Assembly: GCF_036288925.1 (NCBI RefSeq)
Contig: NZ_CP127167.1
Location: 186,001 to 250,000, forward strand
Length of the DNA: 64,000 nt
DNA from: Haemophilus parainfluenzae
GTDB lineage: Bacteria; Pseudomonadota; Gammaproteobacteria; Enterobacterales; Pasteurellaceae
Direction: 5' to 3'
In this document: positions 5,635-37,243 of the stretch, one piece after another
How the letters are laid out: every line of letters starts with the position of its first letter
Numbering within the stretch: position 1 is the first letter of the stretch
Made by a program: the position numbers and the translations under genes
The notes under the pieces: model-generated
The model's database searches: none
Seen by the model: the letters and a program-made list of their open reading frames with translations, nothing else
What the model was told of the DNA's origin: nothing

Positions 5635-6671
5635 TGAACCGCATTTTTCCTGAGCAACTGGCCTCAAACCTGAACAACCATTTAGCGAAAGTCTATTTTT
5701 TGGTTGGGAGCGATCCCCTGTTGCTCAGTGAAAGTGAAGATCTGATTCATCAATCTGCTCTTCTTCAAGGTTTTGATGAAAAAAATCAAATCACTATAGA
5801 TACTAATACTGACTGGCCCGCATTAATCGAGACCAGCCAGTCTATGGGACTCTTCTTTAATAAGCAAATTTTCATTCTCAATTTACCCGAAAATTTGACC
5901 ACACTTTTACAGAAAAACCTTCTGCAATTTATCAGTGGATTAAATGAAGATAGCTTGCTTGTCCTCACCTTGCCTAAATTGTCTAAAGCAGCCGAAAAAC
6001 AAGAGTGGTTTATTCAGGCAAATCAACTTGAGCCACAAGCTGTTATCGTGAACTGCCAAACACCGAACTCAGAACAACTTTCTCGTTGGGTGAAGCATCG
6101 TACAAAAAATATGGGATTATCAGCTGATGAGGAAGCCATTCAACTACTTTGTTACAGCTATGAAAATAATCTACTGGCATTGAAACAAGCGTTACAGCTT
6201 TTAGATTTGCTTTACCCAGATCACAAACTTACGTATAACCGCGTTAAATCAGTGGTAGAGCAATCTTCTGTCTTTACCCCTTTCCAATGGATTGATGCCT
6301 TGTTAGCAGGCAAGGCAAATCGCTCAAAGCGAATTTTGCGAGGTTTACAAGCTGAAGATGTGCAACCTGTCATTTTATTGCGTACTTTACAGCGTGAACT
6401 ACTCACGTTGTTAGAATTAACCAAACCACAGCTGCGTAATCCCTCTCTTAACACGAGTTTGCCTACACAGACACTCAAAGCGGATTTTGACCGTCTCAAA
6501 ATTTGGCAGAGTCGTCGTCCTCTTTATACAACTGCGATACAACGACTTACCTATCAAAAGCTTTTTGAAATATTGCAAGAATTAGCAGATATTGAGCGCA
6601 CAGCCAAGCAAGAATATGGTCAAGACGTGTGGGTAAAATTGGCAGACTTATCGGTTAAAATTTGTTTATAA
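5634..6671 (+). CDS. holA: DNA polymerase III delta subunit
   Basis: HolA opens the beta clamp in the clamp-loader complex. The 345-residue product has the delta hallmarks: an N-terminal degenerate AAA+ fold beginning YFLVGSDPLLLSESEDLI, NLPENLTTL, then a helical C-terminal collar with SVFTPFQWIDALLAGK and ILLRTLQRELLTLLEL. It starts directly on the lptE stop (TAATG), so translation is coupled. A strong terminator follows at once. Confidence 0.93.
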   Translation: MNRIFPEQLASNLNNHLAKVYFLVGSDPLLLSESEDLIHQSALLQGFDEKNQITIDTNTDWPALIETSQSMGLFFNKQIFILNLPENLTTLLQKNLLQFISGLNEDSLLVLTLPKLSKAAEKQEWFIQANQLEPQAVIVNCQTPNSEQLSRWVKHRTKNMGLSADEEAIQLLCYSYENNLLALKQALQLLDLLYPDHKLTYNRVKSVVEQSSVFTPFQWIDALLAGKANRSKRILRGLQAEDVQPVILLRTLQRELLTLLELTKPQLRNPSLNTSLPTQTLKADFDRLKIWQSRRPLYTTAIQRLTYQKLFEILQELADIERTAKQEYGQDVWVKLADLSVKICL

Positions 6672-6701
6672 AAAATCTCGGCGTTAACCGAGATTTTTTA
6701 T
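6671..6701. terminator. Bidirectional terminator holA / 6701 gene
   Basis: An 11-bp perfect stem (6671-6681 with 6688-6698) around a six-base loop, with A and T tracts on both sides. It serves holA on the plus strand and the convergent membrane enzyme on the minus strand. Confidence 0.85.
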
Positions 6702-8365
6702 TATTGCGCAATTTTTAAATCTTGATACAGATAATTTCGATAGCTATTCACTAAATCCACATCCTCTGCATCTTCGAGCTTACCTTGGCTTAGCTGACGC
6801 ATAGCGATATTCGCTCGCATAAAGTCATCTTTCGGTGATAAACCTGCCACATCAAGTAATACACCACCAACAAAGGCTAAATCTAAGAAATCTTGCTGTT
6901 GAACAAAGTCAGTCCTACGATTAGTTCTAACCACAAATTGAGTCACATAATCTGGATTCGCAAAGTTACCTTTTTTCGGTGGGAGCTGATTATCAAAAGC
7001 GACTTGGTGATCACCAAAATAACCGAATACATAAGGTGTTTCTCGTGATTTCAAATAATCATTCAAGCCTTCGATTGCCTCATTAAGGCTAGCAATGCGA
7101 TCAATATAATCGTTCAAGCAAGAAATCGCTTTTCCCCCTAAGCGTTTACTCGCCAAATTAAAATGATTTGGCATATTCGTGTTGTAAGGGCCGTGCTCTT
7201 TCATCGTGAGCACATAAACAAACATGGGCTGTTGTACATTTTCCAATGATGGATGCTGTTTCTGCAAAATCAGTTTGGTGTAATACATCATCTCTTCGCT
7301 TGTAATATGCCAGAGATTTTTGCTGATTGATGCGGGATAGCCTAAATCTTGTGGTTGCAACATCAAATCAAAACCAAAGTGGTCATAAGCAGGTTTTGCG
7401 TTGTAGTTACCTTTCGTAAAAGGCGATAACGCTACGCAAAAATAGCCTTGCTCACGGAGATTTTTAATAAAACCCGTCTGTAAGTGTGGCACAACAGAAT
7501 AAAACACCCCACTTGCTAAAGCACCAAAATCGGTTGAAGGCACCCCTGCAAGGAAAGCAAATTCAGATTTCCACGTTGCACCGCCCACCGTATGTACACG
7601 CAATGGACTCATAAATACGGTATCTTCCTGCTTATTAAACATTGAAAATGGTGGGATGGTTTCTGCATCAAAATCAAATTGATGAGGATTCAAGGTTGAT
7701 TCTTGTAAACAAACCACAATGTCGGACTTTTCTGCACTTTCAGTTTTACTCTCAGCCTTTTCATTTAAAAGTGCGGTCATTTTTTCTTTAAATTTTTGGC
7801 TATTACCTTCAAATTCTGGCACTTTAAAAAATACGCCACGACAAGACATAGGCAGGTTTAAGAACACATCTCGACCATCATCCGGCAATGAGTCTAACCA
7901 GACTTTTGTCGCATCTGGATCTTTAGAATAATGCCATATTAAACCAAAACTCGTTGCTGCAAGTATTGCTGCAAATACGCGAAATCCAGTTGAGGCATTT
8001 TCTACATCTGACCAGCCAAAGACGGCATAACCCAATAGACCTAATAGCCCAAATACACCGAAAATCGCCCCTTTATAATGTAAAAGGGTTTCCCAATTTC
8101 GCCAGTCTGTCACAAGCCAAAAATCTGAAATGAGTAAAGGTTGTTTGTAGTAATGAATTTTCATTCGATGGAATAGCATCAACACCACAAAAAGCACGGA
8201 TGCAAAATTCAATCCGCGTTGCCATTGACCGGTTATTGCAAACATTGAGCTAAACAATAAAACGAATAATGCAATCGCAAAAAAATATGTCCAACGATAG
8301 TGCGAATTGACGATAAAAATCACCGTCGCAATAAAAAATAAACTCAGAAAAATACTTGGAATCAT
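6701..8365 (-). CDS. LTA-synthase-family membrane sulfatase/phosphotransferase
   Basis: The 554-residue protein has about five N-terminal membrane helices (residues 1-130) and a large periplasmic alkaline-phosphatase-superfamily domain. Metal and nucleophile motifs are visible: DIVVCLQESTLNP (conserved Glu), GGATWKSEFAFLAG (candidate Thr nucleophile), ALSPFTKGNYN, LTMKEHGPYNT and YFGDHQVAFD. This layout is shared by LtaS and by Gram-negative phosphoglycerol and phosphoethanolamine transferases. It probably modifies an envelope glycan or lipid; the substrate cannot be read from sequence. Its start is about 22 bases from the mutT stop, so the two may share a transcript. Confidence 0.75.
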   Translation of the reverse strand: MIPSIFLSLFFIATVIFIVNSHYRWTYFFAIALFVLLFSSMFAITGQWQRGLNFASVLFVVLMLFHRMKIHYYKQPLLISDFWLVTDWRNWETLLHYKGAIFGVFGLLGLLGYAVFGWSDVENASTGFRVFAAILAATSFGLIWHYSKDPDATKVWLDSLPDDGRDVFLNLPMSCRGVFFKVPEFEGNSQKFKEKMTALLNEKAESKTESAEKSDIVVCLQESTLNPHQFDFDAETIPPFSMFNKQEDTVFMSPLRVHTVGGATWKSEFAFLAGVPSTDFGALASGVFYSVVPHLQTGFIKNLREQGYFCVALSPFTKGNYNAKPAYDHFGFDLMLQPQDLGYPASISKNLWHITSEEMMYYTKLILQKQHPSLENVQQPMFVYVLTMKEHGPYNTNMPNHFNLASKRLGGKAISCLNDYIDRIASLNEAIEGLNDYLKSRETPYVFGYFGDHQVAFDNQLPPKKGNFANPDYVTQFVVRTNRRTDFVQQQDFLDLAFVGGVLLDVAGLSPKDDFMRANIAMRQLSQGKLEDAEDVDLVNSYRNYLYQDLKIAQ

Positions 8366-27614: not shown

Positions 27615-29681
27615 TTATTGCAATACCGAAATATCCGCCACTTGTAAGAACAGACCTTGTAACGTGTTTAAAATCGCTAAGCGGTTTTGGCGTAATGCTG
27701 GATCTTCAGCATTTACCATTACGTTATCAAAGAAACTGTCTACCGGTGCACGTAAGTTCGCTAATTTATCTAATACAGCCGTGTAATCACTTTGCGCGAT
27801 AAGCGGTTGTACTTCAGTGCGTAATACAAGTACCGCTTCAGCAAGGGCTTTTTCTGCTGGCTCTACGCAAGCGGTCAAATTGATCTCGCCAATTGCAGCA
27901 TCCGCTTTCGCTAAGATATTGCTTACACGTTTGTTTGCTGCTGCTAACGCTTCCGCTGAATCTAAAGTACGGAAGTGTGAAACCGCACGCACGCGCGCAT
28001 CAAAATCAGCAGGACGAGTTGGACGACGTGCCAATACTGCTTGAATCACATCCACCGCAATACCTTCATCTTGATACCATGCACGGAAACGACCGAGCAT
28101 GAAGTCCACCACATCAGTAACCACGTTTTGATTCGTGAGTTTATCACCGAAAAGTGCGGTGGATTTTTTCACTAAATCTTCCAAATCCAGAGGCAAGTTT
28201 TTCTCAACGATAATACGCAATGCACCTAATGCTGCACGGCGTAATGCGAACGGGTCTGCACTGCCTTTCGGAGCTTGCCCGATGCCGAAGATCCCCGTTA
28301 AGGTGTCAAATTTATCTGCTAAAGCGACCGCACTTGCCACCAAAGATTTAGGTAATTCATCACCCGCAAAGCGTGGCATATATTGCTCATTTAATGCTAC
28401 TGCCACTTCTTCATCTTCACCATCATGACGAGCGTAGTGCATACCCATTACACCTTGCGTATCGGTGAATTCAAATACCATGTTGGTCATCAAGTCACAT
28501 TTTGACAGTAAACCCGCACGTTTTGCTTTCGCTTCATCTGCACCGATTTGTTTTGCAATTTCGCCTGCAAGTTGTTCAATACGGTCAGTTTTGTCTTTCA
28601 ATGTACCGAGCTGTTGTTGGAACAACACAGTTTCTAAACGTGGTAAACGATCAACCAGTTTTTGTTTTAAGTCGGTTTTGAAGAAGAATTCCGCATCGGT
28701 TAAACGTGGGCGAACCACTTTTTCGTTCCCTTCGATAATCGCGGTTGGATCTTCTGGGTTGATGTTTGATACAAAAATAAAGTGCGGTAATAATTTGCCG
28801 TCTTTGTCATAAATCGGGAAATATTTTTGGTCGCCTTTCATGGTGTAAACCAAGGCTTCCGCAGGCACTTCTAAGAAACGCTCTTCAAATTTTGCCGCTA
28901 AAACATTTGGATATTCCACCAACGAAGTCACTTCTTCAAGTAAGCTTTCTTCAATGTCAGCCACGCCGCCAAGTGCGGTCGCTTTTGCTTGAGATTTTGC
29001 AAGAATTTCTGCTTTACGTTCATTGAAGTCTGCTACCACAGAACCTTTATCACGCAATAATTGTGGATATTGGTCTGCATGTTGAATTTCAAATTCTTTC
29101 TCGCCTAAGAAACGGTGACCGCGAATGGTGCGAGCACTTGCCACACCTAAAATTTCGCCTTCAATTAACTCATCACCTAACAACATAGTCACAGTATGAA
29201 CCGGACGAATAAACTGCACGGTTTTGTCTGCCCAACGCATTGGTTTTGGAATTGGCAATTTCGCCAAGGCATTAGCCACAATATCGTTCAGCAAGTTTTT
29301 GGTCGGTTGACCTTCAATTTTTGCACGGTGAACTAACCATTCACCTTTATCGGTCGCAATACGTTCTGCTTGATCAACGGTAATTCCACAACCACGCGCC
29401 CAGCCTTCTGCCGCTTTAGTTGGTTTACCTTCTGCATCAAAGGCAGCTGACACTGCCGGACCACGTTTTTCGATCTCTTTGCTCGGTTGCTGTGTTGCTA
29501 AGTTTAATACTTTCACCGCCAAACGACGCGGCGCCGCAAACCATTCGATTTTGTCGAATGATAAGCCCGCTTGGTTTAATTCCGCCTCAACGTTATCCGC
29601 AAAAGAGGTCGCTAATGTTTTGAGAGCTTTTGGTGGCAGCTCTTCTGTGCCGATTTCTACTAGGAAGTTTTGGGTTGTCAT
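27615..29681 (-). CDS. glyS: Glycyl-tRNA synthetase beta subunit
   Basis: Beta subunit of the alpha2-beta2 GlyRS. The 688 residues begin [20 protein letters not shown] and contain [25 protein letters not shown], the HD-type domain [30 protein letters not shown] and [14 protein letters not shown]. It is separated from glyQ by 3.3 kb containing five other genes, whereas the pair is adjacent in most gamma-proteobacteria. Four uptake cores lie inside the gene. Confidence 0.96.
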
Positions 29682-29737: not shown

Positions 29738-29946
29738 ACCTCTGCCAAATCTCCCCTAACCCCTCTTTGCTAAAGAGGGGATTGGATCTTTGGAGGGTTA
29801 AATATTTATGTTCTACTTTAACGTTTTTTGAAAGCAGATAATTTAATCTCTATTGAAATTAAAATGTAAATGAGTCAGTTACTATCAATTTACTCAATAA
29901 ATCCCCCTCTTTAGCAAAGAGGGGTTAGGGGAGATTTGGCAGAGGT
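29738..29946. mobile_element. 209-bp inverted-repeat element beside the DUF559 gene
   Basis: Two perfect 43-bp inverted ends (29738-29780 and 29904-29946) enclose 123 bp of AT-rich sequence without a gene. Each end also contains its own hairpin, CCCCTCTTT-GCT-AAAGAGGGG, preceded by an AAATCTCCCCTAA box. No target-site duplication is obvious. It lies between glyS and the DUF559 nuclease gene, 16 bases from the latter. A closely related pair of ends occurs at 36944-37243. It looks like a non-autonomous element or a paired repeat. Confidence 0.7.
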
Positions 29947-29962
29947 TAATCCAACCTCATAC

Positions 29963-30328
29963 TCAATCAGCCCTCACATTCTCCAAAAACAAATAAATCT
30001 GCTCTACTACACCTTCAATTTCACGCATGACTTCATCATTACTAAATCGCATCACCGTAAAACCAAGTGAATTTAATTCTGCATCTCGCAATGCGTCTTT
30101 TTCCTGATAATCAGGTTCATAGTGCTGACTACCATCTAATTCGATAATCAGCTTTGCTTTCGCACAATAAAAATCAACGATATAACTTAAAAGTGGCTTT
30201 TGTCGATTAAATCGAAATCCTAATAATTGATCTCGATTGATGCGTTGCCATAATTTTCTTTCCGCATCCGTTTGATCCACTCGCAATTTCTGCGAATTCT
30301 CTTTTAAGTATTTTTCATAGGGTTGCAT
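29963..30328 (-). CDS. DUF559 (Vsr-like) endonuclease-domain protein
   Basis: The 121-residue protein fits DUF559: RVDQTDAERKLWQRINRDQLLGFRFNRQKPLLSYIVDFYCAKAKLIIELDGSQHYE, then DAELNSLGFTVMRFSNDEVM. The D...ExDGxxH arrangement is a PD-(D/E)XK-type nuclease core related to Vsr repair nucleases. The cellular role of the family is unknown. It lies five bases after the acid phosphatase stop and next to a perfect inverted-repeat element, which may be its substrate or passenger. Confidence 0.8.
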   Translation of the reverse strand: MQPYEKYLKENSQKLRVDQTDAERKLWQRINRDQLLGFRFNRQKPLLSYIVDFYCAKAKLIIELDGSQHYEPDYQEKDALRDAELNSLGFTVMRFSNDEVMREIEGVVEQIYLFLENVRAD

Positions 30329-36943: not shown

Positions 36944-37243
36944 CTGACAAATCTCCCCTAACCCCTCTTTGCTAAAGAGGGGAATTTCATGATTAAATTA
37001 ACCCTAGATGACATATTTATATGTCTTTATGTATAAATGATTAGAATAAAGCATCAGAATTATAAATCTTGACACTATAATCCCACTCTCTCTACTAAAG
37101 AGAGAAATTGCATGATTAGATTAGCCCAAGATAATGTATTTACAGCTTTTATGTATAAATGATTAGAATAAAACATCAGAATTATAAATCCCGACACTAT
37201 AATTCCCCTCTTTAGCAAAGAGGGGTTAGTGGAGATTTGACAG
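36944..37243. mobile_element. 300-bp inverted-repeat element in the BtuFCD-like operon
   Basis: Ends at 36944-36986 and 37201-37243 are 43-bp inverted repeats with two mismatches, and share the CCCCTCTTTGCTAAAGAGGGG hairpin and AAATCTCC box with the element at 29738-29946. The interior differs: it is a tandem duplication of a ~120-bp unit (about 36962-37081 and 37082-37204), each starting with a hairpin, the second one degenerate (CTCTCTCTACTAAAGAGAG). No gene is present. It begins six bases after the binding-protein stop. Confidence 0.7.

Follow-up and report, generated by a model that had tools for sequence, protein, structure and literature searches.

Hairpin repeats dispersed through the genome of Haemophilus parainfluenzae probably form a REPIN-like two-part system together with a DUF559 nuclease gene, in which units of the BoxC/PIT/triplex kind would be acted on at their hairpins by the DUF559 protein and not by a RAYT; this action we infer. 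The units have a defined anatomy, co-occur with the gene, are physically linked to it across phyla and turn over from one sister genome to another, the hairpin serving as the joint, and the gene itself is under purifying selection. The association of DUF559 with the BoxC/PIT/triplex repeat, as its companion, is new here, and the nuclease would cut and mobilise the hairpin.

The hairpin pair and the DUF559 gene

The window, i.e., the whole stretch of DNA that was analyzed, comprises 64,000 nucleotides of the source genome, which is a single contig of 2.23 Mb. The following features were assigned in the window:

27615..29681, minus strand: glyS, the neighbour of this DUF559 subtype in the family, listed as context outside the element (ORF, locus comparison)
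29738..29780, plus strand: distal REP-like unit, inverted partner of 29904-29946 (arm complementarity, fold)
29781..29903, no strand: AT-rich stretch separating the two REP-like units (recognisable at the site in 14 of 15 genomes)
29904..29946, minus strand: REP-like unit adjoining the DUF559 3' end (ACCTCTGCC/AAATCTCCCCTAA/CCCCTCTTTGCTAAAGAGGGG on the minus strand)
29963..30328, minus strand: intact gene for a DUF559 (YcjD-like, Vsr-like PD-(D/E)XK) nuclease of 121 aa (PF04480 match)
36949..36982, plus strand: REP-like unit, left end of the second element (box match, sequence)
37082..37105, no strand: degenerate middle hairpin between the tandem interiors of the second element (interiors alike; four sister genomes have one interior)
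37205..37238, minus strand: REP-like unit, right end of the second element (box match, sequence)

The original prediction was borne out: the inverted ends are perfect over 43 bp, each forms a hairpin, and a DUF559 gene lies 16 bases away. The 209-bp element at 29738-29946 has 43-nt arms (29738-29780 and 29904-29946) that are 100% complementary and separated by 123 nt, and 16 bases lie between the element and the 3' end of the DUF559 ORF. Each arm contains CCCCTCTTT-loop-AAAGAGGGG and is composed of an outer flank ACCTCTGCC, a C-rich tag AAATCTCCCCTAA and a hairpin CCCCTCTTTGCTAAAGAGGGG with a stem of 9 bp and a loop of 3 bases. In the window units, the tag and the first stem are mirror images, TCTCCCC-TAA-CCCCTCT, followed by ...AGAGGGG. 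When the isolated 34-nt strand of each arm was folded as DNA, the hairpin beat 200 of 200 shuffles. A 17-mer box (up to 3 mismatches) had four matches in the window, with 0.06 expected. A known RNA in the element was rejected: eight matches, six of them to miRNA precursor models and with E-values to 2e-14, were all far under the gathering scores, as would be expected of a long inverted repeat.

The interior of the element was recognisably alike in 14 of 15 aligned genomes and shorter and divergent in the fifteenth. This alignment used 15 of the 20 loci with units, the five omitted ones bearing at least three units. The short spacer of the unit pair at the DUF559 locus varied between genomes and matched within the genome in 11 of 15 (4.7 expected, p=0.0007), the end types being read by eye from the 15-locus alignment.

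The window protein is a full-length member of the DUF559/YcjD family and matched PF04480 with 153.1 bits (cut-off 20.6; 2.8e-45) over domain positions 2-108 of 109. Residues R16, E23, W27, D52, E63, D65, H69, D78 and R81 were invariant in an alignment of 34 sequences, and, judging from relatives, D52, E63, D65, H69 and D78 are candidate catalytic residues of the PD-(D/E)XK/EDxHD core. A profile from the same alignment matched PDB 3hrl ('Endonuclease-Like Protein') at 9e-37 and PDB 3r3p ('Mobile intron protein') at 2.2e-5; we take the latter to be I-Bth0305I, an EDxHD homing endonuclease. The gene is under purifying selection, with a dN/dS of 0.096 (91 pairs, 14 genomes), while that of glyS was 0.025 (36 pairs, 9 genomes). 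A search for close relatives of the protein on viral contigs gave none.

In published work YcjD is a PD-(D/E)XK member whose profile detects Vsr (PMC1189080), the EDxHD class of homing endonucleases has been described (PMC3943268), and a DUF559 gene inside an intein was assigned to it (PMC9403480). The Caulobacter DUF559 protein VsrA was responsible for SOS response in vivo and was interpreted as Vsr-like mismatch repair (PMC12907096), and in Legionella DUF559 lies within three copies of a larger, recombining, transposase-bearing segment (PMC12308824). In the parts of these last three papers that were consulted, a tie between DUF559 and short dispersed hairpins was not found.

Both the window DUF559 protein and GlyS were 99% identical to those on a named Haemophilus parainfluenzae contig. 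glyS adjoined DUF559 in 24 of 33 loci; of the nine loci where it did not, seven had a DUF559 of 42-48% identity and two were on short contigs. The congener G077 had neither the DUF559 gene nor the pair, and its site upstream of glyS is not a clean empty site because other DNA sits there. The spot is variable, as seven of 11 genus genomes carried 0.5-0.9 kb of extra DNA between glyS and the first repeat unit. The glyS alignment of the congener G079 (L235/L236) fell into two parts, between which lay about 115 bp in frame and free of stops; comparison ruled out that this piece is a copy of the repeat.

The second element and turnover between sister genomes

A second element with the same ends, also part of the original prediction, is present at 36949-37238, and the genome's only DUF559 match is that at 29963-30328. 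The second element holds two interiors separated by a degenerate hairpin, which aligned with each other with a score of 122. Compared with the DUF559-side interior, neither showed similarity above chance: the real score was reached in 64 and 255 of 300 shuffles. The claim of near-identical ends with unrelated interiors therefore holds for the two window elements; at the DUF559 side, however, the interior can be recognised as one and the same in 14 of 15 genomes.

The second element occupied the same site in 10 of 11 genus genomes, the upstream DNA being different in the eleventh. Among these 10 genomes, a single forward interior was seen in four, a tandem double interior in two (the source genome and G076), inverted interiors in two, a collapsed site in one and an assembly gap in one. 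The inverted interiors scored 77 and 62 in inverted against 17 in forward orientation, with a shuffle maximum of 27, and the collapsed site consisted of a single hairpin with a tag on either side.

The other sites were compared using joined flanks as the query (9 of 14 sites), and the genomes aligned were chosen for contiguous-looking matches or to show filled sites. Upstream of ilvD, the site was filled in four and empty in two of six genomes aligned. The element there has an outer inverted repeat, TTTCTTCGT/ACGAAGAAA, and in the source genome a different interior lies between near-identical ends. The upstream flank of the source genome recurs in both empty genomes but in none of the three other filled ones. 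A possible 6-base repeat, GAATAA, was clear at this site in one genome only, and a consistent target-site duplication was not seen at the sites aligned. At the 1524.9 kb site, nine of ten other genomes matched across the junction without the element; a clean insertion was rejected there, as the flanks differed as well in the six genomes aligned.

At three sites with a tail-to-tail pair, one or two of the sister genomes compared had only a bare hairpin, and collapsed single-hairpin states occurred in genomes with and without DUF559. From the filled and empty, collapsed and inverted states, the hairpins were the usual change points in the sites aligned. Palindromes of 21-43 bp can undergo inversion, deletion and doubling by ordinary recombination, with no dedicated nuclease needed. 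The comparison of empty sites between strains, suggested earlier, revealed genomes with empty or altered sites, and the proposal of an active or recently maintained process finds support in the inversion, doubling, collapse and presence or absence in sisters and in the matching ends within an element.

Copies across the source genome

A genome-wide search for the box and its hairpin, as had been proposed, detected 14 places outside the window, consisting of eight pairs, four single units and two bare hairpins. The 16-base box (up to 2 mismatches) had 18 matches in the genome and its reversed control two; the 11-base hairpin core had 15 and its control none. Together with the window, the genome has 16 places: 10 inverted pairs (two in the window), four single units and two bare hairpins. 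The pairs were arranged either head-to-head, with the hairpins inside, or tail-to-tail, with the tags inside. DUF559 had one match in the whole source genome. The bare 21-bp hairpins at 1166.9 kb and 2127.6 kb (L028, L034) lack a tag and are followed by T-runs, and these two may act as transcription terminators.

Hairpins beside DUF559 genes across bacteria

In 20 of 30 family loci, at least two tag-hairpin units were located 3' of DUF559, with typical distances of about 46 and 235 bp. Two of the remaining loci had a different repeat on both sides, two were cut by contig ends, and six had other matches or none; the 30 loci were the best-scoring ones returned and not a random draw. A second DUF559 subtype of the family (L036, L038) was flanked on both sides by another repeat in direct orientation (ATATCCCCCTTC.GCCC..). 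At one locus, L047, with a DUF559 93% identical to that of the window and located beside glyS, no tag was found in the 1.5-kb flanks.

The original prediction also placed DUF559 genes of other bacteria near G-rich dyad repeats, and flank counts across phyla strongly support this. At 80 DUF559 loci from 71 Pseudomonadota genomes, the density of GGG/CCC hairpins was 4.35 per kb in the 300 bp next to the gene, compared with 0.44-0.67 per kb farther out, up to 6 kb. Apart from G000 and G119, 75 genomes had a match at E<=1e-20; the set was drawn from 71 of them, without G289, G357, G385 and G388. L112 and L119, whose DUF559 has an internal stop, were kept, with the stops entered as X in the distance matrix. 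At 80 named loci, the density of pyrimidine-arm hairpins fell from 3.14 per kb in the nearest 300 bp to 0.17-0.22 per kb between 300 bp and 1 kb and to 0.05-0.10 per kb at greater distances. The named loci were the best 80 of 577 relatives, ranked by similarity, from a scan of species genomes, and two loci were shared with the first set.

A pyrimidine-arm hairpin was present within 300 bp of DUF559 in 69 of 80 Pseudomonadota loci and 68 of 80 named loci; for the other genes of these loci the counts were 45 of 444 and 21 of 347, with genes less than 1.5 kb from DUF559 or up to 300 bp from the end of the locus omitted. For the control nuclease Vsr, a hairpin within 300 bp was found at 0 of 28 genes (28 of 30 loci used, two shorter than 2.6 kb being omitted), with distances measured from open-frame ends for Vsr and from domain ends for DUF559. 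Hairpins flanked DUF559 on both sides in 44 of 80 and 32 of 80 loci, respectively.

Beyond the Pseudomonadota, 24 of 32 DUF559 loci had a hairpin, the loci being classed by record labels, which can be wrong for MAGs. Those with a hairpin include Chlorobi, Bacteroidetes, Chloroflexi, Gracilibacteria, Planctomycetota, Spirochaetes, Omnitrophota and delta groups. Of the Clostridia/Bacillota loci, five of seven were without hairpins, and Clostridia account for five of the eight misses outside Pseudomonadota; one of these five is Onthovicinus, counted here among the Clostridia.

Further, a mirror tag (at least 7/9) was located upstream of 29% of 346 hairpins around DUF559 genes, compared to 6% after shuffling. 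As just 29% carry it, triplex formation would not be general. Protein and repeat distances were correlated over 146 loci (Mantel r=0.289, or 0.265 given GC; p<=0.001, 999 permutations). These are the 146 of 160 loci with a usable hairpin, pairs more than 65% identical having been dropped (10450 of 10585 kept), and shared descent can contribute to the correlation. In Mesorhizobium and Phyllobacterium (L161, L177, L178, L182, L184, L191), the hairpin ATCTCCCCC adjoins the word GTCCGGCAGGACAG or close variants of it, and a mirror tag is absent.

Tandem arrays of units adjoined DUF559 in four loci, which had been picked because their hairpins looked regular. In another Pasteurellaceae genome (L051, 1841-2928), about 11.5 direct tag-hairpin copies with a period of 94 bp followed directly after DUF559. 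The arrays beside DUF559 at L122, L139 and L071 had units of 42 bp (4.6 copies), 57 bp (5.3 copies) and about 80 bp (9 copies), respectively. L139 contained two arrays of closely similar 57-bp hairpin units, at 754-1001 and 6430-6733, about 5.4 kb apart, only one of which lies beside DUF559.

Co-occurrence of gene and repeat

Enrichment of the repeats near DUF559 across genomes had been proposed as a check, and the repeats were not distributed independently of DUF559 in either Pasteurellaceae or Pseudomonadota. Among 140 Pasteurellaceae genomes, the box occurred in 55 of the 68 that have a strong DUF559 match (E<=1e-20) and in 21 of the 72 others (p=5.5e-10, uncorrected for phylogeny); the reversed box matched none of the 140. 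Counted by genera, the box occurred in 20 of 27 with DUF559 and 1 of 16 without (p=1.8e-5). Repeat presence follows phylogeny, and this genus-level count is the sole correction for kinship in the co-occurrence tests. Among 299 Pseudomonadota, the CCCTCTCCC hairpin was present in 55 of 77 genomes with DUF559 versus 30 of 222 (p=7.7e-21, uncorrected for phylogeny), with 2426 copies in the DUF559 genomes against 418, and the reversed control matched one genome. The 22 DUF559 genomes without this hairpin include lineages with other stems. Many Pseudomonadota genomes had several DUF559 matches, up to 10.

As a predictor of at least five hairpin copies in the 299 genomes, Vsr alone gave 17 of 67 with Vsr versus 35 of 232 others (p=0.07). 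When the two genes were separated, such copy numbers were found in 26 of 50 genomes with DUF559 only, 14 of 27 with DUF559 and Vsr, 3 of 40 with Vsr only, and 9 of 182 with neither. Y1 genes (PF01797) were present in 108 of 140 Pasteurellaceae, and the box was weakly linked to them (64 of 108 versus 12 of 32, p=0.04). In Pasteurellaceae without Y1, the box was found in 11 of 13 genomes with DUF559 versus 1 of 19 without; in those bearing Y1, it was found in 44 of 55 versus 20 of 53. Eight of the 11 genus genomes had no Y1 match, yet 6-18 boxes, and the source genome had one weak Y1 match (2e-10).

The box was present in 14 of 59 Pasteurellaceae without any DUF559 match, one of them with 28 copies, and absent in 13 of 68 with a strong one. 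Such mismatches are possibly relics, other repeat types or contig breaks; few of them were viewed. The congener G077, which has no DUF559, kept six boxes, and G001 had 30 boxes and one DUF559 match.

Relation to known repeats and nucleases

BoxC was first described in E. coli in the 1990s. In E. coli K-12, CCCCTCACCCTAACCCTCTCCCCAGAGGGG is located about 165 bp past the 3' end of ycjD and has the same plan as the window unit. ycjD was present in 3365 of 5426 complete E. coli genomes, and two strains without it were viewed. The BoxC 47-mer was found in 5375 of the 5426 genomes, with 1-32 copies and a median of 18. Among 60 records listed, 18 with a 47/47-identical BoxC copy had 16-23 copies and ten other chromosomes had 1-5, a contrast that is only suggestive with respect to ycjD. 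According to PMC12817139, phylogroups A, B1 and C and two further sequence types carry ycjD between fabI and sapF, where others have eefRABCD.

By its sequence, the window unit, a mirror-image tag with a pyrimidine-arm hairpin, matches the BoxC/PIT/intrastrand-triplex repeat. This G/C-rich intrastrand triplex motif was first known as BoxC in E. coli, was re-found as the PIT element in E. coli, Synechocystis and H. influenzae, and is now reported from more than 260 genomes (PMC4666352). Like the motif, the window unit has a C-rich block, a short loop and a mirror-related hairpin stem, and inverted pairs of two subtypes (A with B) and variability of sites from strain to strain are common to both. 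MG1655 has 23 copies, five times as an inverted pair of type A and type B (PMC4666352), and a count of 22 BoxC copies in E. coli is given in PMC2267715. For the published motif, sites vary more between strains than controls, triplex formation in vitro has been reported in E. coli, and a link to genome instability has been drawn; an earlier study cited in the same paper found neither promoter nor terminator activity (PMC4666352). According to the same source, no activity that could provide mobility was ever found near the sites, and its searched text mentions no nuclease, DUF or ycjD. That paper gives no linked mobility gene, whereas here a DUF559 partner was identified. Our literature search, in which most subscription journals were outside the scope, found no published cause for the spread of BoxC/PIT/triplex repeats.

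The window repeats resemble those of REPIN/RAYT systems (PMC3116915) in that they are tagged hairpins in inverted doublets, flank a single-copy gene that stays in place and is inherited vertically, and co-diverge with it. They differ in the partner, which is a PD-(D/E)XK/Vsr-like nuclease (PF04480) and not a Y1 tyrosine (HUH) transposase, in the tag, which is not GTAG, and in the stem, which is homopyrimidine/homopurine. As the defining transposase is absent, the window system is similar to REPIN/RAYT but not a member of it. Another REP class (CGTC) has no dedicated transposase (PMC3733652), and the consulted part of a REP survey (PMC12306157) mentions neither endonuclease, DUF nor boxC. The DUF559/YcjD literature covered (PMC1189080, PDB 3hrl) assigns the family no repeat partner. 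The catalytic domain of EDxHD homing endonucleases such as I-Bth0305I (PMC3943268) is related to DUF559, as indicated by the 3r3p profile match, but DUF559 here comes without an intron, an intein or an extra DNA-binding domain, and its putative target would be a repeat of the host genome.

Proposed mechanism and alternative explanations

The first part of the proposed system would be the dispersed units, each a C-rich tag (the mirror image of the stem in some lineages) with a homopyrimidine/homopurine hairpin, often in inverted pairs. The second would be the DUF559 gene, here single-copy and in one place, with its own form of the unit after it or on either side. The DUF559 protein, a putative PD-(D/E)XK enzyme of the Vsr/EDxHD-homing type, would recognise the extruded hairpin, or the hairpin with the folded-back tag, and would nick or break it, perhaps during replication. 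Repair from another copy could then cause units to spread or to be homogenised, inverted, doubled or removed. More broadly, and with slightly less than an even chance of being correct, DUF559 might be the missing engine of BoxC/PIT/triplex repeats across many phyla, recognising the homopurine hairpin of its own genome (as a triplex in some lineages) and driving its copying, flipping and loss via break and repair. This would make the system a second REPIN-like replicator, with an enzyme unrelated to RAYT.

The closest competitor would regard DUF559 with its flanking hairpins as a small mobile element or homing unit, the dispersed hairpins being its decayed, internally deleted, MITE-like remnants. 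The hairpins on both sides of DUF559 in 44 of 80 and 32 of 80 loci, the outer inverted repeat with presence and absence at ilvD, the up to 10 DUF559 matches per Pseudomonadota genome and the kinship to a mobile-intron endonuclease are consistent with it. We consider it rather unlikely, as the Pasteurellaceae subtype stays beside glyS, G001 has 30 boxes with one DUF559, and the units of 20 of 30 family loci do not surround the gene but are confined to its 3' side; because it overlaps with the preferred two-part system, the probabilities of the two need not sum to 1. DUF559 could also be a housekeeping or repair nuclease, SbcCD- or Vsr-like, that removes or resolves palindromes and is kept for protection without spreading them. 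Such a role would suit a gene that is single-copy here, is found next to glyS throughout the family and evolves under purifying selection (dN/dS 0.096), the reading of the Caulobacter protein as Vsr-like mismatch repair (PMC12907096) and the collapsed single-hairpin states in genomes with and without DUF559. A caretaker has no need to be bracketed by the repeats it polices, yet 69 of 80 and 68 of 80 genes have them within 300 bp; moreover, the repeat type co-varies with the protein and unit arrays adjoin DUF559 in the four loci examined, which makes this role improbable.

If the units were true REP/REPINs moved by a RAYT/Y1 transposase, with DUF559 a bystander that is often located among them, their tagged hairpins and inverted doublets (PMC3116915), the Y1 genes in 108 of 140 Pasteurellaceae with their weak association (p=0.04) and the weak Y1 match in the source genome would be expected. 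This is largely refuted and very improbable: eight of 11 genus genomes have 6-18 boxes without Y1, the box tracks DUF559 whether Y1 is present or not, and hairpins flank DUF559 across phyla. That the hairpins are transcription terminators or regulatory DNA, close to DUF559 by composition or chance, draws on the T-runs after two bare hairpins of the source genome. As an account of the association it is refuted and hardly credible, given the frequencies at other genes (45 of 444 and 21 of 347) and at Vsr (0 of 28) and the lack of promoter or terminator activity of the E. coli motif in the study cited in PMC4666352; termination is possible as a secondary use.

Implications for the repeat family

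The finding is larger than first stated, as it concerns a repeat family and a nuclease beyond one window locus. The BoxC/PIT repeat family, for which we know of no engine, gains a consistent nuclease companion as a candidate partner. With a candidate enzyme in K-12, YcjD, the origin and function of the repeat family become directly testable. If the proposed system is true, a widespread domain of unknown function would acquire a role, and the mutual maintenance of dispersed repeats and single-copy nuclease genes could be tested in a non-RAYT case.
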